From a virus: a stretch of DNA of 62,084 nucleotides. The stretch spans positions 1 through 62,084 of IMG/VR virus record IMGVR_UViG_3300042504_002530; one strand, given 5' to 3'. The notes beneath the pieces were generated by a model. It did no database searches. It saw nothing but the letters and a program-made list of their open reading frames with translations, and had not been told where the DNA came from. This document shows positions 4,184 to 25,190 of this stretch, piece after piece (positions within the stretch are counted from its first letter, which is position 1; each line of letters begins with the position of its first letter). The position numbers and the translations under genes were made by a program.

Positions 4184-4373
4184 AGCCGGCGCTCCTGTCG
4201 TACAGGACGCTGTCGCCGTCCTTAACAGCACAGACTTCGTTGCCGACGCTGACGACCTTGGCCTCCCGGTAGCGGATGTCCTCGGCGTCCTTGCTTGACA
4301 TGGTTAGCCCGCTGCCGGTCTTTATCTCCCGGTGGACTTCTTCGGCGACGATGAACTTATTTATTGCTTTCAT
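4116..4373 (-). CDS. groES: GroES-like co-chaperonin
   Basis: The 85-residue protein fits the Cpn10 fold: MKAINKFIVAEEVHRE at the N-terminus, a short mobile-loop region (TGSGLTMSSKDAEDIRY), then AKVVSVGNEV, KDGDSVLYDRSAGF and the closing strand YLVILERDVVVVL. GroES caps the GroEL ring so that capsid or other phage proteins can fold. The start overlaps the groEL stop by 17 bases, giving the order groEL-groES. At 85 residues it is slightly shorter than typical 95-residue GroES. Its 3' end lies opposite the wHTH gene. Confidence 0.85.
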   Translation of the reverse strand: MKAINKFIVAEEVHREIKTGSGLTMSSKDAEDIRYREAKVVSVGNEVCAVKDGDSVLYDRSAGFKLMIEGHQYLVILERDVVVVL

Positions 4374-5913
4374 TGGTAATAATTGCGTTTGTACCTAGAA
4401 GAGTGGCCGCTACGCTCGTAGCGCTGATGAGAGCGTTCTTTGTCACCTTGGCCGGGTCAATGACCCCCATGCCCATCATGTCGCCGTAGTGCATGCTCTT
4501 TAGGTCAAGCCCGAAGCCGAACGCGCACCCACGAATGTTCTGCTGGACCTCCAAGTCGTTTACGCCGGCATTCTCCAGAATCTGACGGAACGGAGCCATC
4601 AACGCCCGGCAGAACACCCTCCGGACACGCTCGATATGGCCCTCCTCCTCCATGACCTCATGGGCGATGTAGTTAAGCGCCACCCCTCCGCCGGGCAGTA
4701 CACCCTCGGCTAGCGCGCTACGCACGGCGCAGACCGCGTCATCAACCCGGTCATACAGCTCTTTCTGCTCCACGTCCGTATTTGCCCCGACGTAGATGAC
4801 CGACATGCCCCCCCGGAGGCTTGCAATTCTCTCCATAATAAACTCCCGCTCGTCCTTGCGCTCGGTATTCTTGTGCTGCTCCCATAGTTCTTTGACCCGC
4901 CCGTCAACTTTAGCCGCGTCCAAGTCCGGCCGGACGATGATGGTTTCCTCCCGGCCGACCACGATGCGCTTAGCAATGCCTAGGTCCGTGACCTGAGCGA
5001 TGCTCAAGTCGTCACCGGTCTGCTCGCTGAAGTACTTGCCCCCCAACATGAAGGCAATGTCGCCCATCTGCTCATGCCGGCGCCACCCAAACGAGGGAGG
5101 CTGCACCACGCAGAACTTCAACCCGTTCTTCACCACGTTCGCAGCAAGGGTCATCTGCACCGCGTCGGAGCAGTCCGCGATAATCACCAACGGCTTACCG
5201 CTGTTGATGACCGGCTTGAGCACGTTCTCAATGCTCAGGATGTTGTTGATGGGCGTATCGGACACCAAAACATACGCGTCCTCCAGAATACACTCGTCTT
5301 TCCGTTGGTCGTTGACGAACATCCGGTTCGTGTACCCCCGCTGAAACCGCATGCCAGTGGTTGTCTCCACATAAGTCGTCTGCCCCTGCGAACGCTGCAC
5401 CGTGACAATGCCGTCAGCGCCCACATTCTTGTACGCCGTGGCAATAATCGCCCCAATTTGCGCGTCGTTGTTCGCGCTAATCGTCGCAATGGCCTCCAAA
5501 GACGACAATTTCACCTTCTTGGACAACTTGTCAATGCGCTTAGCCACCTTGTCAGCCATGCCGGTCAGCAACTTGGCCTCACTCAGCGTCAACCCCTCCT
5601 CAATACCACCTAAAGTCATCGCTTCAGCAATGACCACCGCCGTCGTTGTGCCGTCGCCGGCCATCGTAGCCGTCCGGTCCGCCGCCTGACGCATAATCCG
5701 TACCGCCATATTCTCCACCGGGTCGCTCAAAGTGATGGAACGGGCCACCGTGACGCCGTCTTTCGTGACCGTCATGCCCCCAATGTGCTCCGGAGATTCC
5801 AAAATAACCGTGTTACCGCACGGACCCAGAGTGCTCTTCACCGCACCCGCCATTTTTTTGATTCCTGATGCCAAGCCTTGCCTCGCGTCAGCTCCTAAAG
5901 TGAGATTTTTCAT
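4357..5913 (-). CDS. groEL: GroEL-like chaperonin
   Basis: The 518-residue type I chaperonin has the ATP-binding landmarks STLGP (27-31), TKDGVTVA (50-57) and GDGTTT (86-91), the GGG turn in LPGGGVAL, and the C-terminal GVIDPAKVTKNALISATSVA. It lacks the Gly-Gly-Met tail of E. coli GroEL (548 residues). It forms the folding chamber used with the downstream GroES. The start codon overlaps the stop of the 67-residue gene upstream (ATGA). All motifs look intact, so an active chaperonin is likely, perhaps dedicated to late virion proteins. Confidence 0.95.
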   Translation of the reverse strand: MKNLTLGADARQGLASGIKKMAGAVKSTLGPCGNTVILESPEHIGGMTVTKDGVTVARSITLSDPVENMAVRIMRQAADRTATMAGDGTTTAVVIAEAMTLGGIEEGLTLSEAKLLTGMADKVAKRIDKLSKKVKLSSLEAIATISANNDAQIGAIIATAYKNVGADGIVTVQRSQGQTTYVETTTGMRFQRGYTNRMFVNDQRKDECILEDAYVLVSDTPINNILSIENVLKPVINSGKPLVIIADCSDAVQMTLAANVVKNGLKFCVVQPPSFGWRRHEQMGDIAFMLGGKYFSEQTGDDLSIAQVTDLGIAKRIVVGREETIIVRPDLDAAKVDGRVKELWEQHKNTERKDEREFIMERIASLRGGMSVIYVGANTDVEQKELYDRVDDAVCAVRSALAEGVLPGGGVALNYIAHEVMEEEGHIERVRRVFCRALMAPFRQILENAGVNDLEVQQNIRGCAFGFGLDLKSMHYGDMMGMGVIDPAKVTKNALISATSVAATLLGTNAIITNESNK

Positions 5914-6113
5914 TTTTCTTCAAAATTAACACTCAAACACCATGCCAAACTCTTCTGACCGGAAAAAATTAACGGCCATCGCTTCCGGGGATTCTCAACC
6001 GGCGTGTCGTCGTCGTCCGAAACCCACTGCTCGTTGAACGATACGAAGACGTTGTTGCCTAAATAGACAACTATCCCGGGGTCGTCCTTGCTGTACCAGA
6101 AGACATCGTCCAT
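5910..6113 (-). CDS. hypothetical acidic protein upstream of groEL, 67 aa
   Basis: The protein reads MDDVFWYSKDDPGIVVYLGN, then FVSFNEQWVSDDDDTPVENP. It is acidic, with no membrane segment. I do not recognise it. It is the first gene of the left late segment, ends inside the groEL start (4-base overlap) and begins only 18 bases from the duplicated AT-rich element at 6131. Translational coupling with groEL is likely. Confidence 0.55.
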   Translation of the reverse strand: MDDVFWYSKDDPGIVVYLGNNVFVSFNEQWVSDDDDTPVENPRKRWPLIFSGQKSLAWCLSVNFEEK

Positions 6114-6268: not shown

Positions 6269-6547
6269 ACGCTGCCAGATTTTCGACATTTGGGGGTTAG
6301 AAACTTGGAGTAAATGGGTTATCTGAGCCGTTCCGCGCGTCCGTCCGCGTGCGCAAGCACCCCCGCCTGCACGTTGGGGGGTGTTGTATCTTGTGTTACA
6401 TGACGATTTTTTGCCGATTTTGCGCCGACCATACCAACCCCTAAAGGGGTGGTAAAGTACGCCGAAATGGGGCGTTTTGGGCCGACCGAGAGAGGGGTCG
6501 TGTGATGCGCGTTTCCGCCCGAGCATAATGCCCGCGCCGAAAGAGTG

Positions 6548-6564
6548 GGTGTTTGAACACCCCT
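6548..6564. repeat. dispersed hairpin element, copy 1 (loop TTGA)
   Basis: GGGTGTTTGAACACCC forms a 6-bp stem with loop TTGA. It is the leftmost member of the family and lies in the gene-free intergenic region. Confidence 0.75.
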
Positions 6565-6576
6565 CGTTTTGGTCTA

Positions 6577-6853
6577 TACATCTTCGATGTATTGCTCCAT
6601 AACACATCTTACATCCTCCGTTCCCCACCTCTACACCTTCGGTGTAAGCTCCATATACCTTCGGTATATGCTCCGTAACACAACTCAAACAAGCCGTAAC
6701 ACAATTCAAACAAGCCCCAAATGACACGCCGTGTACGCGTACCCGCCTTGGCGGTTCTTCAAGAACCGCCGCGCAGTGTCCGAAGGACACCGCCCGACCC
6801 CGCGACACCCCCGCGTTACCGCGCCGCCGCCTTGGTATCCCCTTCGGGATACC
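6577..6853. repeat. array of perfect short hairpins
   Basis: Six perfect inverted repeats with 3-5 base loops lie here: 6577-6593, 6632-6646 and 6652-6670 (all with loop TTC, tied together by repeats of CTCCRTAACACA), then 6750-6770 (10-bp stem), 6776-6790 (GTGTCC GAA GGACAC) and 6834-6853 (8-bp stem, loop CTTC). No credible gene covers them. They may be part of a structured RNA or of replication or packaging signals. Strand and role are unknown. Confidence 0.7.
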
Positions 6854-6986
6854 GCCCGTAGCCCAAAAAACGCGTCACGCTTAGGCATAATGCGTAATCC
6901 CCCCACATTTCGCGTCATCCCCAAATGATACGCGCGCGGTGCTTTCGTCAACTGCTTGATTTTCAGCGCCTTTGCCGAAATCAAAA

Positions 6987-6995
6987 TGTGGATAA
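6987..6995 (-). promoter_or_regulatory. perfect DnaA box
   Basis: TGTGGATAA is the exact reverse complement of the bacterial DnaA box TTATCCACA. A one-mismatch version (TGTGGATTA) lies at 7163-7171. The site sits in the divergent gene-free region together with AT-rich element A. The phage encodes two DnaA-domain-IV-like proteins, so a replication origin is plausible. One 9-mer could occur by chance. Confidence 0.5.
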
Positions 6996-7092
6996 CTTTT
7001 TTCACCCCCTAACTTGCTGATTTTGAGCCGTTTACATACTCACCGAAAATTTAATTTGACCCTGTTGGGCTGCATTCGGATTTTGCCGTTTA

Positions 7093-7100
7093 TACCTTTG
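7093..7100 (+). promoter_or_regulatory. Bacteroidota-type -7 promoter box
   Basis: TACCTTTG matches the Bacteroidota -7 consensus TAnnTTTG at all fixed positions. No perfect TTTG -33 box is correctly spaced (TTGG at 7064 is 25 bases upstream), so strength is uncertain. Transcription from about 7106 would yield the hairpin-rich RNA that ends at the terminator at 7740. Confidence 0.45.
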
Positions 7101-7646
7101 CATCGCCGACTGACAGCAAACTGACCTCGGCTCCCCACGATACAGACTACCTTGGTAGTCATTGTGGATTACTTGTGACCTACTAAAGTAGGGGTGACAG
7201 CCCAAAACAGAGAGGACAAGGAGAGGTCATAATTTCTAATTATGATGTCGGATGCTTCGTAGTGGTTCCTTACGGAAAGGAACTTAGGGTAGCCGCCTAT
7301 TTCGTGGCTGAGGAATCCCGCACTCCGCAAAAACGGGAACAGGGCAAGGTCAAGCCAAGATTGACCCCGAAGGGGACTGCGACAAAGCAGACCCTACCTT
7401 AAAAAGGTACTTCGGCGAAGGGAAAAGGACAAAACTCCTACGGAGTAAAACCCGATTCCTTACTATGTAACGGCTTTGGTAACACAAAGTATTCCAACCG
7501 AAGGTTGCATAGTGAGGGGGTGGCGCAGACCGAGTTCGTCTAAAAGCCCGATGTGAGCGCTAGAGCCACGAAGATAGAAAGCAGGTTACTAACTATTGGC
7601 CACCCCGAAGGGGTGAAACTTCGGGATTGGTCAAGGCAAAGTACAA

Positions 7647-7696
7647 GGCAAAGGGGTGTTCAAACACCCCTTGGGGTTCGACTCCCCACTTTGCCA
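7647..7696 (+). ncRNA. tRNA-like minihelix containing the dispersed hairpin
   Basis: A 7-bp acceptor-like stem (GGCAAAG 7647-7653 with CTTTGCC 7689-7695, then A) encloses the dispersed hairpin (7653-7670, loop TCAA) and a perfect T-arm (TGGGG TTCGACT CCCCA, 7672-7688). D and anticodon arms are absent, the dispersed hairpin occupying their place. A second GGCAAAG lies at 7635-7641. It is not a normal tRNA; it might act in processing or capping of the 3' end of the upstream RNA. Confidence 0.6.
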
Positions 7697-7705
7697 CAAT
7701 GCCCC

Positions 7706-7740
7706 GTTGGGGGGCTAAAGCCCCAACAAACCCTTTTTTT
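7706..7740 (+). terminator. intrinsic terminator of the candidate RNA
   Basis: A GTTGGGG/CCCCAAC stem (7706-7712 with 7721-7727), with further G-C pairing inside, is followed by AAACCC and seven T at 7734-7740. It lies 24 bases before the first early start codon, so it separates the candidate RNA from the early genes. Confidence 0.8.
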
Positions 7741-7764
7741 CAACGCCATAAACCCTAAAAAATC

Positions 7765-8376
7765 ATGGCTACATTATCCCCCATCGCTCAAATCGTCCGT
7801 TCCAACGCCCAAGTTGCAGAGCAACTCAAGGTCAAGGAAATTCGCACCGTTCTCGCTTCAATAGAGAGCGGTAAACAGAAAGTGTTTACCAAATCGATTG
7901 AACAGGCCCGTCTTTTGGCTAACGCCAAAGAGTGGTTCAACTCCAACAACTCGCTCTGTAAAGAGCGAGGCATTACTTGGAAGTCAATTTTGTCCGATAT
8001 ATTCGGTTTTACCGAATCGGCTATTGAATCCAAGTGGCCCAACCAACTACTGAAAGTAGGGGATGTGACCAATGAACAACTCGAAGAGTTCGTCAAGTGG
8101 GCACAATCCAACGACAAGTCGTTGTCGGTCAAGCAGTTGTACCTTTGGCTGAAGGGCGAAACCGAAGAGACCACCGAAGGTGGTGCTGAAGGCGAAGAAC
8201 AAGCGCCAAAGGCGCAGTGTGTGTGCAGTTGGACGTTCAAACTCCCACTTGTTGGGCAGGGTGAGCGTAATGTATCGGTGAGCATTGACACCGAAGGTGT
8301 TGTCAAGACCTCCAACACGGAGGACGAGTTGCGCCTTGCATACGAAATGATGGGCAAGGCGCTTGGCCTTGCATAA
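7765..8376 (+). CDS. hypothetical early protein with exceptionally hairpin-rich coding sequence
   Basis: The 203-residue protein has a helical N-terminal half (IEQARLLANAKEWFNSNNS, LSDIFGFTESAIESKWPNQL) reminiscent of DNA-binding early proteins, an acidic linker (GETEETTEGGAEGEEQ) and a C-terminal beta part (SWTFKLPLVGQGERNVSVS). No family is recognised. At DNA level it carries about ten perfect inverted repeats, for example 7950-7969 (8-bp stem), 8001-8017 (7 bp, loop TTT) and 8109-8124 (7 bp, loop AA), continuing the style of the upstream non-coding RNA. It is the first early gene, just after the terminator at 7740. Confidence 0.75.
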   Translation: MATLSPIAQIVRSNAQVAEQLKVKEIRTVLASIESGKQKVFTKSIEQARLLANAKEWFNSNNSLCKERGITWKSILSDIFGFTESAIESKWPNQLLKVGDVTNEQLEEFVKWAQSNDKSLSVKQLYLWLKGETEETTEGGAEGEEQAPKAQCVCSWTFKLPLVGQGERNVSVSIDTEGVVKTSNTEDELRLAYEMMGKALGLA

Positions 8377-8395
8377 GAGAAACCGACCGACGGGG

Positions 8396-8413
8396 GGGGT
8401 GTTCGAACACCCC
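8396..8413 (+). terminator. dispersed hairpin element, copy (loop TCGA)
   Basis: GGGGTGTTCGAACACCCC with extra flanking G:C pairs, followed by TCCCTTTTG, lies 19 bases after the stop of the first early gene. It probably acts as a terminator or 3'-end stabiliser. Confidence 0.75.
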
Positions 8414-8453
8414 TCCCTTTTGTATTTCATTCAACCCTTAAAACCCAACCAAA

Positions 8454-8711
8454 GTGCTAAACATTACCAAAAATTTCCAAAAAACCGAGTCCGTGTCCGT
8501 TATCATCCGCTTTGGCCTAACGGTCAACGGCCACGAAGTGACGGGCGAATGCGAAGCATGGGCAAGCGACGGCGTTATGGACGCAGGAAGCATCGTGAAA
8601 TTTGATAACTCACATCTCATGTATGAGTCGGGGCTGTTTTCTCCCGACGAAAAGGACGAAATTATTGAGTATGTACAGCAGGGCATCGACCTCCCAAAAA
8701 TCAGCGAATAA
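8454..8711 (+). CDS. hypothetical protein, 85 aa
   Basis: The start is the ATG after an AACCCAACCAAAGTG-like leader typical of this early region. The protein has a beta-rich N-terminal part (SVSVIIRFGLTVNGHEVTGE) and a helical acidic end (SPDEKDEIIEYVQQGIDLP). No family, signal or membrane segment is recognised. It is bracketed by two copies of the dispersed hairpin (8396 and 8714), so it may be its own transcription unit. Confidence 0.65.
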   Translation: MLNITKNFQKTESVSVIIRFGLTVNGHEVTGECEAWASDGVMDAGSIVKFDNSHLMYESGLFSPDEKDEIIEYVQQGIDLPKISE

Positions 8712-8713
8712 AG

Positions 8714-8731
8714 GGGGTGTTCGAACACCCC
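8714..8731 (+). terminator. dispersed hairpin element, copy (loop TCGA)
   Basis: GGGGTGTTCGAACACCCC begins 3 bases after the stop codon of the 85-residue gene and precedes the leader of the AAA+ gene. No T run follows. Confidence 0.7.
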
Positions 8732-8756
8732 TCCAACCCAACCCTAAACAAACACA

Positions 8757-10106
8757 ATGCAACACCCTGAGAATTGGTACATTCCCGTAACCCAAGAGAA
8801 CCGCGCCGAACTTGAGCCGTGGTGGCTAATACAGGCCGTAAAAAGCGGATGGACAGGCAAAAAAGGCCACCTAAACATAGACACCCTGCTGCTTTCAGTA
8901 CACCCTTCCGATAGCAGTTATTATTGGAGTGGAAGCGAGAGCGGTTTCGAAGCAGACCACCCGTCCTATCAAAAAATCACCTTAGAACAATTCCGACAAA
9001 TCACCAACCCTAAACCCCAAAAATCGATGAAAAAAGTATCATGGAAAGAAGTCGTGGCCAAGACCACCGAGTCCTCGAGCGAGGCCATCGCCCAAGTCGC
9101 ATCCAAGGCAATCGCCCAAGCCCTTGCGGAAATTGCGCCACCTACGGGGGGCGAGTTCGACCCCGAGGAAGTGCGCTCGTTGGTCCGCGAGGAAATTGAA
9201 GGCCAAATCGGGGTCATCGTCCACCGCCCCGAGTTGAAGGACGCACTCATGGAGGTCGGGCGCAAGGTATCCGACGACCTTGAGCAGGTGTACATGGCCC
9301 GCTTCGATTCGCTCACTCAGGAGGCGGAGCGCAAGGCTTCACACCGAGTTGAGGTTTACCGAGAAGGGGTGTCCGAACACCCCTCCCACGTCGAGGAAAT
9401 CGCCCACCACAACCTGCACCACTTGATAAAGATGGTGGCGCTCAAGTTGAATGTGGCGCTTATCGGCGAGGCGGGGTCGGGCAAGACGTTCGGTGCGGAG
9501 CAGGCCGCGAACGCTTTGGGACTGCGCTTTTTGCCCATGAGTTTCCACGCCAAAATGACCGCGACGGATATCAAAGGGTACTGCGACGCGAACGGCAATT
9601 ATGTGCCGAGTATCCTGTACGATGCGTTCAAGAACGGCGGGGTGCTATGCTTGGACGAGTTCGACCGCTCGAACACGGAGGTCACGGTGTCGCTCAACAA
9701 CATGTTGGCCGGCAGTGCGTACATGTTCCCGAACAACGAGATAGTGCGCAAGCACGATGATTTTCGGGTCATCGCTTGTCAAAACACGACGGGTTCGGGT
9801 GGTAGCAAGACCTACGCCGCCGCTTCGCGGCAAGATTCATCCACGCTCAATCGATTTGTAAAAATCGAGTGGAACATTGACGAAACGATGGAGCGCAAGG
9901 TGGCAGGCGACACCCACGCCACCGAGAAGGTGCAGGCCATACGTCGCAAGGCCCGCGAGTTGGGTGTGGATATCGTCATCAGCCCACGCCAAAGCATCCA
10001 TGTGAATACCCTCATGGATGCGGGGTACAGCTTGGGCGAGGCGCTCAACTACGCCATCTACAACTGCCTTGCCGACGATGTGAAGGAACGATTGAGCCGA
10101 GTTTAA
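8757..10106 (+). CDS. MoxR/CobS-like AAA+ ATPase with N-terminal WYIPVT domain
   Basis: The 449-residue protein has Walker A GEAGSGKT at residues 237-244 and Walker B GVLCLDEFDR near 297-306, followed by sensor-like SLNNMLAG and VIACQNTTGSG, as in MoxR/CobS/AAA_5 ATPases that remodel partner complexes. Residues 1-84 form a domain (HPENWYIPVTQEN..ITLEQFRQITN) found twice more in the protein at 12207. A second Met (9027, MKKVSWKEVV) follows a leader-like linker and could be an internal start. The dispersed hairpin is in frame at residues 204-209 (GVSEHP). The next gene is a VWA-like partner. Confidence 0.85.
   Translation: MQHPENWYIPVTQENRAELEPWWLIQAVKSGWTGKKGHLNIDTLLLSVHPSDSSYYWSGSESGFEADHPSYQKITLEQFRQITNPKPQKSMKKVSWKEVVAKTTESSSEAIAQVASKAIAQALAEIAPPTGGEFDPEEVRSLVREEIEGQIGVIVHRPELKDALMEVGRKVSDDLEQVYMARFDSLTQEAERKASHRVEVYREGVSEHPSHVEEIAHHNLHHLIKMVALKLNVALIGEAGSGKTFGAEQAANALGLRFLPMSFHAKMTATDIKGYCDANGNYVPSILYDAFKNGGVLCLDEFDRSNTEVTVSLNNMLAGSAYMFPNNEIVRKHDDFRVIACQNTTGSGGSKTYAAASRQDSSTLNRFVKIEWNIDETMERKVAGDTHATEKVQAIRRKARELGVDIVISPRQSIHVNTLMDAGYSLGEALNYAIYNCLADDVKERLSRV
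9366..9383 (+). repeat. dispersed hairpin element inside AAA+ gene (loop CCGA)
   Basis: GGGGTGTCCGAACACCCC is read in frame as GVSEHP, in the linker between a helical region and the ATPase core, where an insertion would be tolerated. Confidence 0.85.
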
Positions 10107-10107
10107 G

Positions 10108-10125
10108 GGGGTGTTCGAACACCCC
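10108..10125 (+). terminator. dispersed hairpin element after AAA+ gene (loop TCGA)
   Basis: GGGGTGTTCGAACACCCC starts 2 bases after the stop codon and is followed by TATTTTTCC. Probably a terminator or attenuator between the ATPase and VWA-like genes. Confidence 0.75.
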
Positions 10126-10153
10126 TATTTTTCCACCACTAAACCCAACCAAA

Positions 10154-11050
10154 GTGAGATACGAACACGACAAAAAGAAAGATTTAGTCAAGATTGCGAC
10201 GACCTTCCATGAGTACGTCCAACTTGCGAACGAGTACAAGAGCGGCGACGTGGGGTATGGTTCGTGCGAAAGGCTTAGCAAACCCAATGAGTTTCGCGGC
10301 GACGCATTGACCTTCGAGCAGATGTACGACCGTTGCTACGACGGCTACAACGCCAAGGCCATCGGCGAGCAACGCAAGAAAATCGCCGAGTTGTTTCAGT
10401 GCGAGCGTCCCATGGATGAGTTGCGAGTGAGTGGCGAGGCGCTCGACGTTCCGACGTTCTTGAGCGGAGAGCCGAAATGCTTTTGGGAATCGACCACCGA
10501 GGAGCGCAAGGCGAGGGTGCACATCGCTTATGCAAGCAACTGCACTGCGGGTCACGGGGCGCAAGCGTTCCTCAATCACGGCGGGGCCATCGCTGCTTTG
10601 TGCGACGTCATCGCCGACCAAGCCGACACGAAAATCTCCTGCTATGTGAGCAACACTCGCGTCTATGCAGGCAAAGGCTTGAGCGCCATCACCATCAAGG
10701 ACTACGACGAGAGCGTGGACATCCCCCGCATCGGGGCGACCACCCACCCTTCGTTCTTCCGACGCATCGGGTTTGCATGGTTCGAGGGCTTCGGTGCATC
10801 CATCGGCAAGCCCGAGTGGTCGGGGTATGGGTGCTCAGAGACGGGCAAGGACAGACCTGCGGTCATCAGCGACGAGGAGTTCGCCGAGTGGCTACGGGTC
10901 GAGAAGGATGAGATAGTCATCGACCTGCCCGCCGCCGACTTGTCCTGCTTTAGGAGCGAGAGTTCGACCGCCGCATGGTTAGCCAACGCCATTGACAAAA
11001 TCAAGGAAGCCATTGCGACCAAGAACAACTACATTCAACTTTTCAACTAA
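10154..11050 (+). CDS. VWA-like partner of the AAA+ ATPase (CobT/DUF7192-like)
   Basis: The 298-residue product starts at GTG 10154 after a leader identical in style to its neighbours (AACCCAACCAAA). The region KARVHIAYASNCTAGHGAQA..LNHGGAIAALCDVIADQADTKISCYV has the pattern of phage VWA-like proteins that carry a V-I/N-G signature followed by RGAA--AL-D-LE (DUF7192-like, number from memory). MoxR-type ATPases are often paired with VWA proteins, and this gene directly follows one, so a two-component remodelling complex is likely. The target is unknown. Confidence 0.7.
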   Translation: MRYEHDKKKDLVKIATTFHEYVQLANEYKSGDVGYGSCERLSKPNEFRGDALTFEQMYDRCYDGYNAKAIGEQRKKIAELFQCERPMDELRVSGEALDVPTFLSGEPKCFWESTTEERKARVHIAYASNCTAGHGAQAFLNHGGAIAALCDVIADQADTKISCYVSNTRVYAGKGLSAITIKDYDESVDIPRIGATTHPSFFRRIGFAWFEGFGASIGKPEWSGYGCSETGKDRPAVISDEEFAEWLRVEKDEIVIDLPAADLSCFRSESSTAAWLANAIDKIKEAIATKNNYIQLFN

Positions 11051-11086
11051 ACCCACGGATGGGGGCTAAACCAAACACCACTTACT

Positions 11087-11413
11087 ATGAGTACCAAAAC
11101 CACAATCAGCGAAGCGCTTGGCCTTTCACAGGTATGGGCAGACAAGAACCAACAGGTAGTCGAGAAGGCGTGGAGTGAGCACGACACCGTGAGCGACACG
11201 ATTCTCGATGTGCTCGAGCAGATGCGTGACGCCGAGTTCGGCGAAACGGGCGAGAAGCCAACGACTTACGAGATTAAGTTGATGATGGCGGGCATGCACA
11301 TCGGCGCGAAGAAGGGCGAGTTGGCTATGAAGAAGATGCTCTTTGAGAAAGCATTGGAGACCATGAGCGGAGACCTGCTCAAGAAATTCCGAGGCGAGGA
11401 GAGCGAAGATTAA
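11087..11413 (+). CDS. hypothetical helical protein, 108 aa
   Basis: A helical, acidic protein (MSTKTTISEALGLSQVWADK, TVSDTILDVLEQMRDAE, FEKALETMSGDLLKKF) without signal peptide or membrane segment. The family is not recognised. It follows the ATPase/VWA pair and ends shortly before a dispersed hairpin terminator, so it may be the last member of that unit. Confidence 0.65.
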   Translation: MSTKTTISEALGLSQVWADKNQQVVEKAWSEHDTVSDTILDVLEQMRDAEFGETGEKPTTYEIKLMMAGMHIGAKKGELAMKKMLFEKALETMSGDLLKKFRGEESED

Positions 11414-11422
11414 GAGTGCCGA

Positions 11423-11448
11423 GGGGGGTGTTCGAACACCCCCCTTTT
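11423..11448 (+). terminator. strong terminator (extended dispersed hairpin, loop TCGA)
   Basis: An extended copy with a GGGGGGTGT/ACACCCCCC stem (11423-11444) is followed by TTTT. It has the classic form of an intrinsic terminator after the 108-residue gene and immediately precedes a tRNA-like sequence at 11451. Confidence 0.85.
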
Positions 11449-11450
11449 AT

Positions 11451-11532
11451 AGTCGGGTCATTCGGTGGATGCGTTGTGCCTTTTTTAGGGTTAGGTGGTG
11501 CGCATTTGCGGGTTCGACTCCCGCCCCGACTA
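11451..11532 (+). tRNA. degenerate or unusual tRNA-like sequence
   Basis: A perfect 7-bp acceptor (AGTCGGG 11451-11457 with CCCGACT 11525-11531, discriminator A) and a perfect T-arm (GCGGG TTCGACT CCCGC, 11508-11524) are present, with a possible 3-bp D-stem (CAT TCGGTGG ATG). The anticodon arm cannot be folded canonically; the middle is TGCCTTTTTTAGGG. CCA is not encoded. It is either a decayed tRNA or a tRNA mimic; no amino acid is assigned. Confidence 0.5.
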
Positions 11533-11590
11533 CGATGCCTACGGCGAGGCTTTGTATCGTCTTCGATTTCCTCAACCCAATTAAACACCT

Positions 11591-11797
11591 ATGAACTACG
11601 CCACTTTTTGTATCGCCGCGTACATATTACGCAAAGACCCCGAAAGGTTTGACAGACTTGACGGCGTGTGGACTGTCGCAAGGCAGTACTACAACTCGTA
11701 CTTGCACTCCAAATACAACGACATTTCAAGGAGCGAACTCGACTGCATCAATGACTTTATGAATCTAATCTACACCACTAAAACAATCAACCCATGA
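11591..11797 (+). CDS. hypothetical protein, 68 aa
   Basis: A small helical protein (MNYATFCIAAYILRKDPERF, ARQYYNSYLHSKYNDISRSE) rich in Tyr, with no recognised family. Its stop overlaps the start of the DUF3846-like gene by four bases (ATGA), indicating translational coupling. Confidence 0.6.
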   Translation: MNYATFCIAAYILRKDPERFDRLDGVWTVARQYYNSYLHSKYNDISRSELDCINDFMNLIYTTKTINP

Positions 11798-12147
11798 AAG
11801 CAATCCTAATCGACCCGCACACCCGCTCAGTCTCCGAAGTAGAAGTGAGCGAAAAGAATTTCCTCAAAGACCTGTATGCCCACATCGAGTGCGGTCTTGT
11901 TGAGCGAACCATTGCCGACGACCGCAAGCATGAGATATGGCTTGACGAGGAAGGTTTGTTCAGCGAGTCCGTTCAGTTGTTCAGTCTCGAAGGCTATCCC
12001 CAAGATGCCTATGCTGGCAAGGGCGTCATGCTTGGATGCAACCGAACGCTTACCGGCTCAAAGGACTGCGCCCTTACACTCGATGAGGTCAAGGCCAAGG
12101 TCAAGTTCATGTCTCCGTATGAGTATCTCAAGAGCCGTCAACAATAA
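11794..12147 (+). CDS. DUF3846-like phage protein
   Basis: The 117-residue protein opens MKAILIDPHTRSVSEVEVSE, then has a conserved IWLDEEGLF and AGKGVMLGCNRTLTG. This is the layout of DUF3846, a domain common in phages and plasmids, whose function is not established. The gene ends 6 bases before a strong hairpin terminator. No catalytic motif is visible. Confidence 0.7.
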   Translation: MKAILIDPHTRSVSEVEVSEKNFLKDLYAHIECGLVERTIADDRKHEIWLDEEGLFSESVQLFSLEGYPQDAYAGKGVMLGCNRTLTGSKDCALTLDEVKAKVKFMSPYEYLKSRQQ

Positions 12148-12153
12148 TCCAAC

Positions 12154-12180
12154 GGGGGGTGTCCGAACACCCCCCCTTTT
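12154..12180 (+). terminator. extended dispersed hairpin terminator (loop CCGA)
   Basis: A GGGGGGTGT/ACACCCCCC stem (12154-12175) is followed by CTTTTCTTTTC, 6 bases after the stop codon. It begins a terminator-leader cassette repeated at 13189 and 13582. Confidence 0.85.
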
Positions 12181-12206
12181 CTTTTCATCAACTAAACCCA
12201 AATCAA

Positions 12207-13178
12207 ATGACACACCCCGAAAAATGGTACATCCCCGTAACCGAAGAGAACCACGCAGAACTTAATCAATGGAGGCTAAGTAAAAGAACACGGGAAGCGT
12301 CAAGGCATGACAATAAGTTCGTGCCCGGCGCAACCCTTCTGTCTGCACATCCATGCGATGATGGTAGTTATTTCTATATGAAAGGTTATAGTATAACACA
12401 AATAGACAATGGCTACCAAGAAATCACTCTCGAGCAATTCCGTCAAATCACAAACACCATGAAGCACCCAAAGAAATGGTATATCCCCGTAACCAACGAG
12501 AACCACGACGAACTTAATCAATGGAGGCTAAGGGTCGCCACCTCTTATCGTGACATGAAACTCAACCCTTATGATAGCGTTGTATTATCAGCTCATCACC
12601 GTGACGGAAGCTATTATTATGCCGACGGTGTCAAAGGCTTAAAGGCAAACAACGCATACAACGACTACCAAGAAATCACCCTCGAACAATTCCGCGAAAT
12701 CACAAACCCAACCCAAACAACCATGTCAAAACAAATCCAAATCTCCCGTGAGTTACTCAACGAGTACTACGAAGCAAGCACCACCGAACAGAAGGCATAC
12801 CTATCGGAACACTTCAAGTTGGATGGGAGCACAACTGTTGAAGCCATCCGTGGACTGCACGACTTAGCGTGTCGAGGTTGGAGGCCAAAAATCAAGGCGA
12901 ACCACCCCGACTGCTTCCCCGAGGATAGCAAGTACTTTGACTTCTCCGAGCATGTCAACAAATCCGTGCAGGAAAAAAGAGTTGTTTCAGCGGATGTTTG
13001 TGAATCCTTGGGACTTACTGAAAGCACAAGAGGCTTCATTCAAGTTAGGAATAATAGCGGCAACCCACAGACGCATCATCGCTCGTTCTACCTTTCTTCC
13101 AAATACAACTGGGAACTAGTGCAAGACGGGACAGAAGACGGTCGCCCCATTATGGTACTAATCCCAACCAAGAAATAA
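12207..13178 (+). CDS. protein with two tandem WYIPVT domains and a unique C-terminal part
   Basis: From ATG 12207 the product has 323 residues. Residues 1-83 (HPEKWYIPVTEENHAELNQW..ITLEQFRQITN) and 85-170 (HPKKWYIPVTNENHDELNQW..ITLEQFREITN) are tandem copies of the domain also fused to the AAA+ ATPase. A third part starts at an internal Met (12723, MSKQIQISRELLNEYYEAST) and is unrecognised. Each copy begins with its own ATG (12207, 12459) and ends in a linker that looks like an intergenic leader read through, so the gene may be a fusion of three small genes. Function unknown. Confidence 0.75.
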   Translation: MTHPEKWYIPVTEENHAELNQWRLSKRTREASRHDNKFVPGATLLSAHPCDDGSYFYMKGYSITQIDNGYQEITLEQFRQITNTMKHPKKWYIPVTNENHDELNQWRLRVATSYRDMKLNPYDSVVLSAHHRDGSYYYADGVKGLKANNAYNDYQEITLEQFREITNPTQTTMSKQIQISRELLNEYYEASTTEQKAYLSEHFKLDGSTTVEAIRGLHDLACRGWRPKIKANHPDCFPEDSKYFDFSEHVNKSVQEKRVVSADVCESLGLTESTRGFIQVRNNSGNPQTHHRSFYLSSKYNWELVQDGTEDGRPIMVLIPTKK

Positions 13179-13188
13179 TTCAATCAAC

Positions 13189-13217
13189 GGGGGGTGTCCG
13201 AACACCCCCCTCTTTTC
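13189..13217 (+). terminator. extended dispersed hairpin terminator (loop CCGA)
   Basis: The stem lies at 13189-13210, followed by TCTTTTCTTTTC. Hairpin plus downstream leader to the start codon at 13241 are nearly identical to 13582-13638. Confidence 0.85.
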
Positions 13218-13240
13218 TTTTCACTTAAATCAAATCAGCC

Positions 13241-13573
13241 ATGAGAAAATTATTATTATTATTCTTCCTCTTGACATCGTGCGTTGCCGAAGACCAACCC
13301 GTTCCATACGAGTACCGCGTTAGCGGAACATCGGGTTCGTATTCCGTCACGCTTCAAAACGCATACGACAACACGCAACAATGGAGCGAGGTCGGCAATG
13401 GGTGGTGGTACAAGTGGACACAAACAGGAGGTACGAGGTGGCTCTATGTTTCCGCGCAGAACAATCGCTCGTCGGGTAATGTTACCGTGCAAATTGTCCG
13501 AGCGGGCGTTGTTGTTGCATCAAACACATCCTATGGCGGATATAGCATCGCCACAATTTCGGGTAGATATTAA
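13241..13573 (+). CDS. small lipoprotein with beta-sandwich (MmpS-like) domain
   Basis: The 110-residue protein has a lipoprotein signal (MRKLLLLFFLLTSC, Cys at 14), then a beta-rich domain (YEYRVSGTSGSYSVTLQNA, WLYVSAQNNRSSGNVTVQIV) of the type seen in small secreted or lipid-anchored Bacteroidota proteins with an MmpS-like pattern. It would sit in the host envelope. An early-expressed lipoprotein in a lytic phage could block superinfection, but this is inference. It is flanked by two identical hairpin-leader cassettes. Confidence 0.75.
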   Translation: MRKLLLLFFLLTSCVAEDQPVPYEYRVSGTSGSYSVTLQNAYDNTQQWSEVGNGWWYKWTQTGGTRWLYVSAQNNRSSGNVTVQIVRAGVVVASNTSYGGYSIATISGRY

Positions 13574-13581
13574 CCAATGGA

Positions 13582-13609
13582 GGGGGTGTCCGAACACCCC
13601 CCTCTTTTC
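13582..13609 (+). terminator. extended dispersed hairpin terminator (loop CCGA)
   Basis: A GGGGGTGT/ACACCCCC stem at 13582-13601 is followed by CTCTTTTCTTTTC. With the next 30 bases it duplicates the cassette at 13189-13246. Confidence 0.85.
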
Positions 13610-13632
13610 TTTTCACTTAAATCAAATCAGCC

Positions 13633-14079
13633 ATGAAAACAGCCTATGTAAAATCCCGCCAAATCTCCTGTGTGTCCGAGCCGTCTCCGTTTGAGAAGGT
13701 AAAGATAAACGGGTCAAGCGATGCCCAAAAATTCGCACGGCAATTCTATCATGAGGACATTGAACTCTACGAGTCTATGTTTATTATGATGTTGAATCGC
13801 AACAACATGGTCACTTCATACGCCAAAATATCCCAAGGCGGGACGTCGGGAACGGTGGCAGACCCAAAGATTATTGCGAAGTACGCGGTGGATGACCTGT
13901 GTTCCGGCGTAATCCTTGTACACAACCACCCGTCGGGTAACAGAACTCCGTCAGACGCCGACATACGCTTGACGACAAAAATAAAACAAGGATTGGGAAT
14001 GTTTGAAATCAAACTACTTGACCACATCATCTTGACCGCAGACGGATACGCATCCCTAGCAGACGAAGGAACAATCTAA
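13633..14079 (+). CDS. radC: RadC-like JAB/MPN domain protein
   Basis: The 148-residue protein has the RadC/JAB metal-site signature: ESMFIMMLNRNNMV, then VILVHNHPSGNRTPSDADIR (H-x-H followed by S and D) and LLDHIILTADGYASLAD. RadC-like proteins are widespread on phages and mobile elements; the fold is that of a metalloprotease/isopeptidase and the true role is unsettled. The N-terminal helix-hairpin-helix part of bacterial RadC is missing, usual for short phage or plasmid forms. The metal ligands are intact. Confidence 0.85.
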   Translation: MKTAYVKSRQISCVSEPSPFEKVKINGSSDAQKFARQFYHEDIELYESMFIMMLNRNNMVTSYAKISQGGTSGTVADPKIIAKYAVDDLCSGVILVHNHPSGNRTPSDADIRLTTKIKQGLGMFEIKLLDHIILTADGYASLADEGTI

Positions 14080-14090
14080 CTCCATAACAA

Positions 14091-14618
14091 ATGAAATACA
14101 AAATCTATCATCGCATCGACAATAGTTATGACATCATCACGGAGGACGGAGGCGTAGCCGTCTTCTATCACAACCAAGAGAACTATGTGACGCATTACTA
14201 TCAGAGAAGCCTCAGCGAGTGCAACCCTGCGAACTATGTGTGGGACGAACTATCCGAGGGCAAAATCTACATCAACGATTGGGAAGGTAGCGACGAACCT
14301 CCGAAGGAAGAAGTAATCAAAGACGCGCTCGAGTGGCTTGTGTTTCCTGCCCCCGCAGAAGGATGGGAACTTGACCAAAGTATTTGGAGCGAGTTCTTTC
14401 CGATGACAATAGTGGGCAGGCACGTTGAGGGCATATCTCTGAACGGACTTGAGTATCTGTTAAACGAGGACGGGAGTGTTATGCAATTCGCATCCGAGTA
14501 TCACGCCAAGAAATTTCTCCGTTCAAAGATTCACGAAGATGTCACCGACGAACTGCTAAACGAGGTTTTCACATTTGAAACAACGGGTGTTCAAACACCC
14601 CCTAAACCAAATGACTAA
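14091..14618 (+). CDS. hypothetical acidic protein, 175 aa
   Basis: The protein opens MKYKIYHRIDNSYDIITEDG and is rich in Glu, Asp, Trp and Tyr. No motif or family is recognised. Near its C-terminus the dispersed hairpin (14585-14600) is translated in a different frame from other copies (TGVQTPPKPND), just before the stop, suggesting that the element extended or replaced the original tail. Its stop overlaps the next start by one base. Confidence 0.65.
   Translation: MKYKIYHRIDNSYDIITEDGGVAVFYHNQENYVTHYYQRSLSECNPANYVWDELSEGKIYINDWEGSDEPPKEEVIKDALEWLVFPAPAEGWELDQSIWSEFFPMTIVGRHVEGISLNGLEYLLNEDGSVMQFASEYHAKKFLRSKIHEDVTDELLNEVFTFETTGVQTPPKPND
14585..14600 (+). repeat. dispersed hairpin element in 3' end of CDS (loop TCAA)
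   Basis: GGGTGTTCAAACACCC is read as GVQTPP at the C-terminus of the 175-residue protein; no T run follows. Confidence 0.8.
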
Positions 14619-14833
14619 TGGGACGACAAAAAGGAAAACAAACCACGGCGGAGAGTTGGATAATTGCCAACGGAAAAGCGGGCGACCATTTCTATTCGGA
14701 TAAGAAGGACGGAAGCCTGACGGCAATAGCCGCGTATCACAAGCGCAAAATCACGACCGAAAGGTTAATCACAATCACAACGGGAGGTAAAGAACCTAAA
14801 GCCAAGTACATAACAAAAGCCACTTTACTATGA
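14618..14833 (+). CDS. hypothetical small basic protein, 71 aa
   Basis: A basic protein (MGRQKGKQTTAESWIIANGK, TAIAAYHKRKITTERLITIT) of unknown family. A two-part pattern with AAYHKRKITTER could be a helix-turn-helix, but this is weak. It overlaps both neighbours by 1-4 bases and is thus an operon member. Confidence 0.55.
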   Translation: MGRQKGKQTTAESWIIANGKAGDHFYSDKKDGSLTAIAAYHKRKITTERLITITTGGKEPKAKYITKATLL

Positions 14834-15078
14834 CGGAATACATCATAACAAATCATTTATTCTTTGAGGACGGGACGTCCGACAGAAACACCGAGACGTT
14901 CAACAAATACAAGGACGCTATGGGTTATGCAAACTGCATGACCGAAACGAGCGAACTGCCCCCGAGCGGCGTTGACTTCACGGTATTGGAAACTGTGGAG
15001 TACGCTTTCGTAAGTGGGCACGGAGAGCTTCCCGACGAATGGAATGAAACAAGAAGAACCTTAACCTACTTTATTTAA
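14830..15078 (+). CDS. hypothetical protein, 82 aa
   Basis: A small acidic protein (MTEYIITNHLFFEDGTSDRN, SGVDFTVLETVEYAFVSGHG) of unknown family. The start overlaps the upstream stop (ATGA) and the next small gene starts 2 bases after its stop. No signal or membrane segment. Confidence 0.55.
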   Translation: MTEYIITNHLFFEDGTSDRNTETFNKYKDAMGYANCMTETSELPPSGVDFTVLETVEYAFVSGHGELPDEWNETRRTLTYFI

Positions 15079-15080
15079 CC

Positions 15081-15239
15081 ATGGAAAAGATAAGCCTCAC
15101 AATCCAATCAGCCTTCCCTTCGGGGATGCTCACGATTTCAGCCGTCGTCAAGGGACACCTTGTGCGCAAGCGTTACATGGGTTACTCAAAGACCCAAGCT
15201 AAAAGGCTATTCATTCAAACCATAAACTCCAAGCCATGA
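15081..15239 (+). CDS. hypothetical small protein, 52 aa
   Basis: From ATG 15081 to TGA 15237 the protein reads MEKISLTIQSAFPSGMLTIS, VVKGHLVRKRYMGYS, ending QTINSKP. It is basic and possibly beta-rich. It fills the gap between the 82-residue gene and the MORN-like gene, whose ATG overlaps its stop (ATGA), which supports it being real. No family recognised. Confidence 0.55.
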   Translation: MEKISLTIQSAFPSGMLTISAVVKGHLVRKRYMGYSKTQAKRLFIQTINSKP

Positions 15240-15559
15240 ACAACGAACTCACACCCCACATTGAATACTACCCCAACGGGAATGTAAAGGTTAAAGGACA
15301 AAAGAACTCCAAAGGGCAAGAAGAAGGTATTGAGGAGTTGTTCTATGGAAACGGCAACATCCGTGTGAGAACCCCTTACAAAGGAGGTAAGGAGGATGGA
15401 ATTGAGGAGTGGTTCTATGATAACGGAAACATCGAATGTAGAATCCCATACAAAGGTGGTGAGAGGGATGGAATTGAGGAGTGGTTTCATCCAAACGGAA
15501 ACATCATAAAAACTTATGTATGGAAAGACGGAGAACTAATTGAAGAAACTGAACACTAA
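15236..15559 (+). CDS. MORN-repeat (YwqK-like) protein
   Basis: The 107-residue protein has four or five MORN-type repeats: EYYPNGNVKVKGQ, ELFYGNGNIRVRTPYKGGK, EWFYDNGNIECRIPYKGG and EWFHPNGNIIKTYVWKDG. Such repeats form beta-hairpins that mediate contacts with proteins or membranes; in Bacteroidota they are common in YwqK-like antitoxin proteins. No toxin is evident next to it. The gene overlaps the small upstream gene by four bases. A role in blocking a host toxin is speculative. Confidence 0.8.
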   Translation: MNNELTPHIEYYPNGNVKVKGQKNSKGQEEGIEELFYGNGNIRVRTPYKGGKEDGIEEWFYDNGNIECRIPYKGGERDGIEEWFHPNGNIIKTYVWKDGELIEETEH

Positions 15560-15570
15560 GCCCAAACAAA

Positions 15571-15855
15571 ATGACCAAAGAATTTATCCTACCCACCGAC
15601 TTCACGAAACTCAACCCGAGAAAGAAGAAGCAAGTACGCGAGCAGTATGCGAGAATGCAGAAGGGCTTGTGTATGTATTGCAACGAGCCATTGGACGGAC
15701 AACCGCCCGAGAGAATCACAAGTCTGCCGGTCAACTTCCCCGCTCACTTCTTCAAGTATCCCGTGCACCTTCAGCACAATCATGACACCAACATGACCGA
15801 GGGCGCAGTGCATTGTTATTGCAACGCAGTCATGTGGCAATACGAAGGACGATGA
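15571..15855 (+). CDS. HNH-like Cys/His phage protein
   Basis: The 94-residue protein has CMYCNEPLDG (CxxC), then HLQHNHDTNMTEGAVHCYCN followed by AVMWQYEGR. The pattern of a zinc CxxC, an H-x-H pair and the GAVH-YCN-V-WQY end matches small HNH-endonuclease-like proteins of phages as I recall them. It may nick or cut DNA during replication or recombination. Its stop is followed at once by a dispersed hairpin. Confidence 0.7.
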   Translation: MTKEFILPTDFTKLNPRKKKQVREQYARMQKGLCMYCNEPLDGQPPERITSLPVNFPAHFFKYPVHLQHNHDTNMTEGAVHCYCNAVMWQYEGR

Positions 15856-15857
15856 GA

Positions 15858-15875
15858 GGGGTGTTCGAACACCCC
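15858..15875 (+). terminator. dispersed hairpin element after HNH-like gene (loop TCGA)
   Basis: GGGGTGTTCGAACACCCC starts 2 bases after the stop codon. A promoter-like site follows at 15886, so it may separate two transcription units. Confidence 0.75.
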
Positions 15876-15885
15876 AAGAATAAAT

Positions 15886-15916
15886 TTTGTTTTTTCAAAT
15901 TAACTTACTATATTTA
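15886..15916 (+). promoter_or_regulatory. Bacteroidota-type promoter
   Basis: TTTG (15886-15889), a 19-base spacer and TATATTTA (15909-15916) fit the TTTG/TAnnTTTG consensus at all but one position. The next gene starts at 15926, only about 10 bases downstream. This suits a new operon after the hairpin at 15858. Confidence 0.55.
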
Positions 15917-15925
15917 TACAACAAC

Positions 15926-16081
15926 ATGACACGAATCCCAAACTTTAGACTATGGCAGTTATACATACGCAAGGCGTGTGTGTATGCCGAAATGCCCAAA
16001 GTGTCGGACATCAAGTCGCCGATGCGAATCAACTGGGTCCACCTTGGAAATGTAATCGAAGCAAAAAAACAACTATCATGA
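15926..16081 (+). CDS. hypothetical small protein, 51 aa
   Basis: I chose the ATG at 15926 (MTRIPNFRLWQLYIRKACVY) over an upstream in-frame ATG at 15887 because the latter lies within the promoter-like site. The protein is basic with aromatic residues and has no known family. Its stop overlaps the next start by four bases (ATGA). Confidence 0.55.
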   Translation: MTRIPNFRLWQLYIRKACVYAEMPKVSDIKSPMRINWVHLGNVIEAKKQLS

Positions 16082-16335
16082 AAAGAATACTCAAATTCCT
16101 ATCAACGGCAAAGGACAGGTATCATCGCGCTATCGTCCAACGCTTCCAACGCCTAAGCGATAAGCCCTACGAAATCACGGAGCAAGATGTGTTGTCAACG
16201 CGAAGGGTTGCCATGTACTGCTACCTCGACCACTATAACGTAGTGGTTGACAACGATGGTCACTTCCACCTAAACGGAAGAGTATTCACTGATGAGTCTC
16301 ACCTTTTAACCCACATAAAAAACGATGCCAAATAG
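16078..16335 (+). CDS. hypothetical protein, 85 aa
   Basis: The ATG at 16078 overlaps the previous stop. The protein begins with a basic helix (MKRILKFLSTAKDRYHRAIV), then RFQRLSDKPYEITEQDVLS, and a C-terminal part with HYNVVVDNDGHFHLNGRVF. The family is not recognised. Its last 11 bases overlap the next gene. Confidence 0.55.
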   Translation: MKRILKFLSTAKDRYHRAIVQRFQRLSDKPYEITEQDVLSTRRVAMYCYLDHYNVVVDNDGHFHLNGRVFTDESHLLTHIKNDAK

Positions 16336-16597
16336 CGCCCAAATCAAAAAGACGTGCGATGAAATCTGCACGCTTTTGCAAAAGAAGAACGCCGCCTACG
16401 GAGATTCAGCGGCAAATCCAATCCGTGTATTTTCAAAGGCTCAACCAATAGAGGGCATTCTTGTGCGCATTGACGACAAGTTATCCCGCATACAAAACGC
16501 GGGTCTTACCGACTTATCTATGGCCGAGGACACCCTGCTTGACTTAATTGGCTACTTAATCTTATTAAAAATAGAAAATGACAGAGGAAAAGATTAA
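16325..16597 (+). CDS. DUF1599/Nmad1-like, MazG-related protein
   Basis: The 90-residue protein carries LLQKKNAAYGDSAANPIRVF, ILVRIDDKLSRIQNAG and EDTLLDLIGYLILLKIEN. This is the pattern of the DUF1599 / nucleotide-modification-associated domain 1 family (name from memory), all-alpha NTP-pyrophosphatase relatives found in phages. The acidic ExxxD-like residues for metal binding (EDTLLDLIGY) are present. It may act on nucleotide pools or signalling nucleotides. It overlaps both neighbours, so is co-expressed. Confidence 0.8.
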   Translation: MPNSAQIKKTCDEICTLLQKKNAAYGDSAANPIRVFSKAQPIEGILVRIDDKLSRIQNAGLTDLSMAEDTLLDLIGYLILLKIENDRGKD

Positions 16598-16904
16598 CCT
16601 AATCGTAAACCAAGTTACCCATGCACTCAACCTACAAAAGAAAGAAATCTTTGCGTCCAATAAACGCAGACCTTTTGTTGACGCGAGGCATCTAATTTAT
16701 TTTTGTTGTTATCACTTTGGCGTCCGCAATACATACATTCGTGAGTATTTTTGGAAAAGAGACTATCGTGTTCCTCATGTCAGCATTATCCATGGCGTTA
16801 ACAGGATGCGCATACAACGAAGAACCGACCAAGAACTAAGAGAGCTTCAAGATAAAATAATTGACAAATGTACTCAACAGATGAATTATGGGAGCAAGCA
16901 CTAA
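16578..16904 (+). CDS. DnaA domain IV-like DNA-binding protein
   Basis: In this 108-residue protein, residues 33-80 (VDARHLIYFCCYHFGVRNTY, IREYFWKRDYRVPHVSIIHG, VNRMR) follow the DnaA C-terminal pattern: AR-I-Y---R, IG--F--RDH, and a TVI-A-like signature here changed to HVSIIHGV. It lacks the AAA+ part of DnaA, so it could bind DnaA-box-like sites without hydrolysing ATP. A second such protein lies at 23487. Role in origin recognition or regulation is inferred. Confidence 0.75.
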   Translation: MTEEKINLIVNQVTHALNLQKKEIFASNKRRPFVDARHLIYFCCYHFGVRNTYIREYFWKRDYRVPHVSIIHGVNRMRIQRRTDQELRELQDKIIDKCTQQMNYGSKH

Positions 16905-18544: not shown

Positions 18545-18558
18545 AAAAAACAAAGACA

Positions 18559-18840: not shown

Positions 18841-18864
18841 TAGGTACTTAGGGGTTTTCAACAA

Positions 18865-18893
18865 GGGGGGTGTCCGAACACCCCCCTTTTTTT
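18865..18893 (+). terminator. strong terminator (extended dispersed hairpin, loop CCGA)
   Basis: A GGGGGGTGT/ACACCCCCC stem (18865-18886) is followed by seven T, 24 bases after the recombination cassette. It separates that operon from element B and the primase gene. Confidence 0.9.
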
Positions 18894-21468: not shown

Positions 21469-21470
21469 CT

Positions 21471-25167: not shown

Positions 25168-25190
25168 CAAACAAATTAAAAACAAAACAA

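Follow-up and report, generated by a model that had tools for sequence, protein, structure and literature searches.

The window, by which we mean the whole stretch of DNA analysed here (62 kb; IMG/VR record IMGVR_UViG_3300042504_002530), is a virus record whose terminase, portal protein, structural protein and GroEL fall into PHROG families. Its terminase is closest to that of the uncultured podovirus MW202828 (69%) and next to those of Flavobacterium and Cellulophaga phages, and this affinity therefore places the host of the phage, probably, in the Bacteroidetes. The region of interest, positions 7107-7740, had been described in a sequence-only reading as lying between early and late blocks, which is inexact: it is flanked by the leftward GroEL gene on one side and, on the other, by the gene that opens a rightward block. 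That first gene, a 203-aa ORF without any match in Pfam or PHROG, has relatives at the equivalent position in the phage loci L011, L012, L006, G005, L026, L033 and L034 and in about 25 others. In the cultured relative phi38:1, the gene order at GroEL differs, and its tRNAs are full-length. Elsewhere in the window, the leftward strand carries a 3609-aa ORF at 27928-38757 that would encode a giant protein. The features to which we refer are the following:

4357-5913, leftward: GroEL gene, the 5' neighbour of 7107-7740
7093-7100, + strand: -7 box of the Bacteroidetes type (TAnnTTTG), TACCTTTG, belonging to the presumed promoter
7107-7634, + strand: structured leader body with 5' hairpins, a multibranched domain and a 3' hairpin
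7596-7634, + strand: conserved 3' hairpin GGCCACCCYGAARGGGUGAAAYUUC, adjoining the tRNA-like element
7635-7695, + strand: tRNA-like element lacking a D-stem, with acceptor GGCAAAG/CUUUGCC, linker UACAAGGCA, a hairpin at 7651-7672 and T-arm GGGG-UUCGACU-CCCC
7706-7727, + strand: hairpin GUUGGGG-N8-CCCCAAC in the mRNA leader 3' of the tRNA-like element, kept in L011, not a terminator
7765-8376, + strand: the 203-aa ORF ("A2") that opens the rightward block, followed by an AAA ATPase and then a DUF7192 protein
11451-11531, + strand: second tRNA-like element, between a gene stop (11413) and the next start (11591)

As had been proposed, 7107-7740 holds no credible gene: its open reading frames are of chance size (the longest within the region 46-57 aa), one 103-aa GTG ORF overlaps the region and extends into the next gene, and a coding reading was ruled out on these grounds. 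The TAnnTTTG box expected ahead of the RNA is indeed present immediately 5' of its start, and no good -33 box was seen at the usual spacing from it. At the promoter, L011 carries an identical copy of TACCTTTGCATCGCCGA, the long leader of MW202828 is likewise preceded by TACCTTTG, and other relatives have the form TTTG-N19-TAnnTTTG 50-90 nt ahead of the 203-aa gene.

The twelve perfect hairpins reported earlier were recovered exactly (stem of at least 5, loop of 3-8), whereas 500 dinucleotide shuffles had 3.1 on average and never more than 10; eight hairpins have a stem of at least 6, against a mean of 0.9 in the shuffles. The minimum free energy of the region relative to shuffles (z = -5.95 on the + strand and -3.73 on the complement) favours the + strand, as expected for the transcribed one. 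In the predicted fold, the multibranched domain of the leader body is closed by a long-range helix of 7288-7309 with 7564-7590, and its stems have pair probabilities above 0.7; this body structure is a prediction, for which the two alignable members (the window and L011) do not suffice as proof. Perfect hairpins also crowd the non-coding positions 6480-6900 further upstream, and many of them carry a C(UUCG)G loop on the + strand; seven have a stem of at least 6, compared to 0.5 expected (z = -3.8 on the + and -4.3 on the - strand). Hairpin richness by itself is therefore no marker of the RNA.

The intrinsic terminator that had been assigned to the end of the RNA is absent. A terminator scan was empty on the + strand before 8392, and behind the hairpin at 7706-7727 AACAAACCC-type sequence intervenes before the T run, which does not directly adjoin the stem. 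A free-standing, terminated non-coding RNA was thus rejected for want of a GC-rich hairpin with a direct T run; without a terminator, transcription probably reads into the next gene, which makes the RNA the leader of the rightward operon. A long leader that is joined to a gene, and that could be separated from it at the tRNA-like element, therefore describes the locus better than a free-standing non-coding RNA does.

This element at 7635-7695, correctly spotted at the outset as a tRNA-like minihelix, proved to be the key part of the region. Inspection found neither D-stem nor anticodon arm, ARAGORN calls no tRNA, and the Rfam tRNA model (RF00005) stays below gathering, so that an ordinary tRNA was excluded; tRNA-Sec (27 bits) and mascRNA (25.2 bits, gathering 42.5) also score below gathering. 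The mascRNA of MALAT1/MEN-beta (RF01684) is similarly a tRNA-like minihelix that ends a long non-coding RNA, but it is a eukaryotic family and we claim no homology. The tRNA-like domain of tmRNA resembles the element in combining an acceptor with a T-arm in the absence of a D-stem; unlike in tmRNA, the acceptor of the window closes locally, within about 60 nt, and tmRNA was rejected on this ground together with negative ARAGORN and Rfam results (in L011, the tmRNA model matched no more than 15 nt of the T-arm). The inner hairpin of the element is one copy of a dispersed palindrome, GGTGTTCGAACACC and variants, that occurs 19 times against 0.17 expected, mostly within 6548-22962 and nearly always in the rightward block (e.g., at 8398, 8716, 9368, 10110, 11427, 17220 and 22154), at gene ends but also within ORFs, where it is translated into the peptides GVSEHP and GCPNTP. 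Relatives have palindromes of their own at similar places, such as GTGTAATGTCATTACAC in L026, GGTGTACTTGAGTACACC in L023, GTGTGTCCGGCACAC in L006 and GTGTCGTTAACGACAC in L043.

The interpretation towards which we lean, with slightly better than even confidence, is that the region constitutes a transcribed non-coding leader of the rightward block, ending in a tRNA-like element that RNase P would cut. The structures of leader and element are well supported; we infer the transcription start, the cleavage by RNase P and whatever later role the released RNA may have.

Support for these structures comes largely from L011 (contig IMGVR_UViG_3300025872_000472), which was reached via neighbouring proteins and shares the gene order of the window. 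The two loci are about 81-82% identical at the promoter region and the 3' end of the RNA, while the body is barely alignable. Nevertheless, the RNA of L011 folds even more strongly than that of the window (z = -7.98) and with a similar layout of a 5' hairpin, a 260-300-nt domain closed by a long-range helix, further hairpins and the tRNA-like element. Across the 3' helices, we counted nine double compensatory changes (two each in the outer 3' hairpin, its inner stem and the acceptor, three in the inner hairpin of the element), no single-sided ones and three broken pairs, two of them in the inner stem of the 3' hairpin and one in the T-stem. The element itself thus shows five compensatory changes in acceptor and inner hairpin and one broken T-stem pair, the fifth, which is U-A in the window. 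Covariation with related phages, suggested earlier as a check, accordingly bears out the 3' domain, and the body is too diverged for it.

In the 3' hairpin, the outer stem has two double changes and no broken pair, and the inner part can pair in two ways: the sequence CACCCYGAARGGGUGAAAYUUC at 7601-7622 may form two mutually exclusive hairpins, each with covariation between the window and L011 (two double changes and two broken pairs in one inner stem; one double change and no broken pair in the alternative, CACCCY-GAA-RGGGUG), which makes it a possible switch. Such covarying alternatives directly 5' of the tRNA-like element would suit a leader that acts in cis, that is, a long 5' UTR that controls the operon through antitermination, attenuation or translation of the 203-aa gene and in which the tRNA-like element would be a switch domain instead of a cleavage mark. 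The position of the leader directly between promoter and first gene, in the absence of a terminator, fits this idea as well, and so does the best conservation being found at the promoter-proximal and gene-proximal ends. However, L006 and many other family members drive the 203-aa gene from a leader of just 50-90 nt, and inner gene junctions without a long leader likewise carry tRNA-like elements, so we regard control in cis as unlikely, if the most serious of the alternatives.

The distribution of leaders among relatives was studied by a route through GroEL that yielded 80 more related-phage loci, around 25 of which include a relative of the 203-aa protein. A homologue search with the 203-aa protein alone had been unsuccessful where its GroEL, AAA-ATPase and DUF7192 neighbours succeeded; blastn against cultured phages found no homologue of the region, DNA patterns for a 3' end of the window type matched only the contig already known, and no DUF7192 relatives were found among genome contigs. 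Short leaders prevail, with the TAnnTTTG box 50-90 nt 5' of the 203-aa gene in most loci that have a recognisable promoter, and the leaders of L006 and G005 are short too. Long leaders of about 380-840 nt occur patchily in seven, namely the window, L011, L012 (~390 nt), L026/L027 (~840 nt), L033 (473 nt), L034 (506 nt) and MW202828 (~380 nt), and their folding z scores range from 0.1 to -8, with L012 and L033 folding no better than shuffles. Elements at the equivalent position end the long leaders of L011, L012 and L026, a weaker one was read by eye at the leader end of MW202828, and in L033 and L034 this place is taken by a closed 3' helix that lacks a canonical T-loop. In the GroEL tree, L006 is the sister of L011 and yet has no long leader; presence of the long leader is patchy, with four changes of which at least three are forced by well-supported branches, and for this reason we claim neither a single nor multiple origins. 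Because close relatives do without a long leader and its presence is patchy, the role of the released leader RNA is probably an accessory one.

The earlier suggestion that 7107-7740 forms a large structured RNA outside all Rfam families is supported, and the RNA is probably transcribed. No Rfam family matched this RNA at gathering and no large-RNA model reached E<=10 in either the window or L011, and GOLLD, ROOL, OLE, HEARO and the other Rfam families were rejected accordingly; a group I intron, prompted by short GACUA-like strings, likewise found no support in Rfam. GOLLD and ROOL are large, highly folded phage RNAs found near tRNAs (PMC12286853), but the likeness drawn to them did not hold beyond size, phage setting and the tRNA-like neighbour, as the RNA of the window matches neither model and is a leader joined to a gene. 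It is nonetheless conceivable that it represents a new class of large ornate RNA acting in trans, with a role analogous to that of GOLLD and ROOL (e.g., self-assembly, given that these two form homo-oligomeric cages) and with a 3' domain constituted by the tRNA-like element, considering its size, its very stable fold, the phage setting, a layout kept despite diverged sequence, and the precedent of these two phage RNAs near tRNAs. Given the lack of a match to large-RNA models and relatives that vary from ~380 to 840 nt in length with significant folding in only some of them, we consider this improbable.

The case for cleavage by RNase P draws on the recurrence of the element at gene junctions. 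Its general plan consists of a 7-bp acceptor stem, a linker bearing GG, an optional hairpin and a T-arm with a UUCRANY loop, and many elements are just 41-43 nt long. We performed a strict scan for a 7-bp acceptor plus a T-arm with TTCRANY over 1.33 Mb, in which the T-loop is present by design, and obtained 18 matches compared to none in reversed and one in block-shuffled sequence, while a relaxed scan gave 37 against two in reversed sequence. Four of these 37 resemble ordinary tRNAs or tRNA relatives (L032 9071, L042 13365, window 24863 and window 25073) and a fifth match is located within a coding gene (L075 5753); the remainder have neither D-stem nor anticodon arm. The two tRNA-like genes of the window, 24863-24982 and 25073-25168, are nearly the same in acceptor and T-arm; the former has a long and unusual inner part, and the latter is called by ARAGORN as a tRNA-Stop with anticodon TTA, a possible ochre suppressor.

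Inspected elements lie shortly 3' of a stop codon and 5' of the next start, in the sense orientation of the operon, as in two intercistronic gaps of L032 (stop 2529, element 2537-2578, start 2617; stop 5990, element 6010-6052, start 6087). The second element of the window at 11451-11531 is labelled tRNA-Lys by ARAGORN and matches no Rfam tRNA at gathering score, and L011 has an element of different inner sequence at the corresponding position (12479-12556). A stack of 12 bp (7 of the acceptor, 5 of the T-stem) is present in 11451-11531 and most relatives. Although not a selection criterion, GG occurs within the first 14 nt of the linker in nearly all matches, often as AUGGUA or AUUGGA; it recalls G18-G19 of the D-loop and could imitate the D-loop contact.

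Because MAFFT misaligned the acceptor stems of elements of mixed length, short elements alone were used for the covariance model. In an alignment of nine of them, 11 of the 12 pairs show changes on both sides, with a covariation score of 0.868 versus 0.222 for shuffled and 0.10-0.32 for slid alignments; these elements had been chosen for pairing, which biases the figures towards structure and makes the comparison with reversed sequence the fairer control. A covariance model built from six elements recovered new members in L039 (E = 2.6e-9), L032 (6e-8), L054 (8e-8) and L102 (8e-5). The two elements of the window reach only E = 0.2 and, for 7635-7695, 0.36 under this minimal model because of their inserted parts. 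At gathering score, Rfam had no match on six element-bearing phage loci.

Beyond the phage family, a wider DNA pattern of linker plus T-loop, with no acceptor required, matched 36 genome contigs, among which 12 sites in 11 contigs are complete elements under the covariance model (E<=5e-6), and acceptor stems of mostly 6-7 bp emerge at pattern-matched sites although not demanded. The carriers, which comprise some prophage and bacterial contigs and extend to Firmicutes, are among others Bacteroidales, Prevotellaceae, an Ignavibacteria MAG, a Clostridia MAG (with two copies), a Lachnospiraceae and a Lactobacillus contig; pattern matches in Patescibacteria were discarded as they resemble, on inspection, 3' halves of ordinary tRNA-Gly. 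In Lactobacillus, the site neighbours a phage transcriptional activator family, and a phage protein family is found close to the site in Lachnospiraceae; an element in a Prevotellaceae MAG (L151 1337-1379) lies between genes whose translations we identified by inspection as a NAD-dependent epimerase and a UDP-glucose dehydrogenase. The motif may thus serve bacterial operons as well.

What bacterial RNase P measures is the 12-bp length of acceptor plus T-stem, and the enzyme also contacts the T-loop (PMC10731613); its known substrates other than tRNAs include the phage M3 and C4 RNAs (PMC11143913). As the elements keep features recognised by this enzyme and are located where cleavage would part one cistron from the next, we favour, by a modest margin over doubt, viewing them as RNase P marks. 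In this scenario, transcription by a host-type RNA polymerase would begin near 7107 and, after about 530 nt of highly structured RNA, proceed into the 203-aa gene; the stretch 7635-7695 retains what RNase P measures (the 12-bp acceptor/T-stem stack, the tRNA T-loop and the GG of the linker), and the host enzyme would cut at its 5' side, around 7634/7635. Cleavage there would set the ~530-nt leader free as an RNA of its own and leave the downstream mRNA with a 5' end that is defined and structured, and the elements at gene junctions of relatives would cut their operons likewise, as a phage counterpart of tRNA punctuation.

Some observations count against cleavage. Pairing with RCCA aids bacterial RNase P as a helpful, not an absolute, feature, and none of the scan matches that were checked has an encoded CCA behind the element. 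This objection is weakened by the tRNAs of phi38:1, which the same scan likewise found to lack CCA, and CCA could be added to the elements after 3' trimming. Other points are the inserted hairpin and poor minimal-model score of 7635-7695, the missing T-loop in L033 and L034, and the weak folding of L012 and L033.

Compared to known systems, M3 of phi80 and the C4 antisense RNA of P1/P7 are phage RNAs cleaved by RNase P though they are not tRNAs (PMC11143913, PMC10731613), and M3 has been drawn against the 12-bp length measured by the enzyme. The elements described here differ in keeping an authentic tRNA T-loop together with GG in the linker, in recurring at gene junctions and in ending a long leader, and their cleavage is predicted. 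Mitochondrial tRNA punctuation is similar in placing tRNA-shaped elements between polycistronic genes as presumed cutting marks, but the phage elements, without D-stem and anticodon arm, are no working tRNAs, and the presumed enzyme is bacterial RNase P.

The same tRNA-like traits could also mean that the elements are mimics left uncut by RNase P, which would bind a protein such as the CCA-adding enzyme, EF-Tu or a tRNA-targeting defence nuclease, or protect RNA ends. Retention of T-loop and GG (as a possible mimic of the D-loop contact) alongside a dispensable anticodon arm agrees with this, but the fixed sense position between stop and next start is more in keeping with a processing mark than with a free decoy, and we judge such mimicry to be a little less probable even than an RNA acting in trans. 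That the elements are junk, i.e., decayed tRNA genes and palindromes spreading in non-coding phage DNA, might be suspected from hairpin-rich 6480-6900 and the palindrome copy inside the element but is very improbable, because decay would break stems where 11 of 12 pairs have changed on both sides, elements recur at corresponding junctions (window 11451 and L011 12479), and reversed sequence yields just 0-2 matches.

Returning to RNase P marks, we tentatively propose, at less than even confidence, that the ~42-nt motif (7-bp acceptor, AUGGUA linker, T-arm and sometimes an inserted hairpin) is a widespread cutting mark at gene junctions of phages and some bacteria that also releases a large phage leader RNA. 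Individual RNase P substrates other than tRNAs are already known; what Rfam 15 and full-text searches of an open-access library did not yield is a mini tRNA-like motif that recurs and covaries at phage gene junctions, and an earlier description elsewhere is possible. Given its absence from Rfam 15, annotation pipelines miss the motif or call it a tRNA, as ARAGORN does at 11451. If the broader proposal is true, it would amount to tRNA punctuation outside organelles and without working tRNAs. Should the elements be RNase P marks, these phages would divide polycistronic messages by means of the tRNA-processing enzyme of the host, with very small natural tRNA mimics as its targets, and a large structured RNA would be released by the same route, with a 5' end predicted at each acceptor stem.
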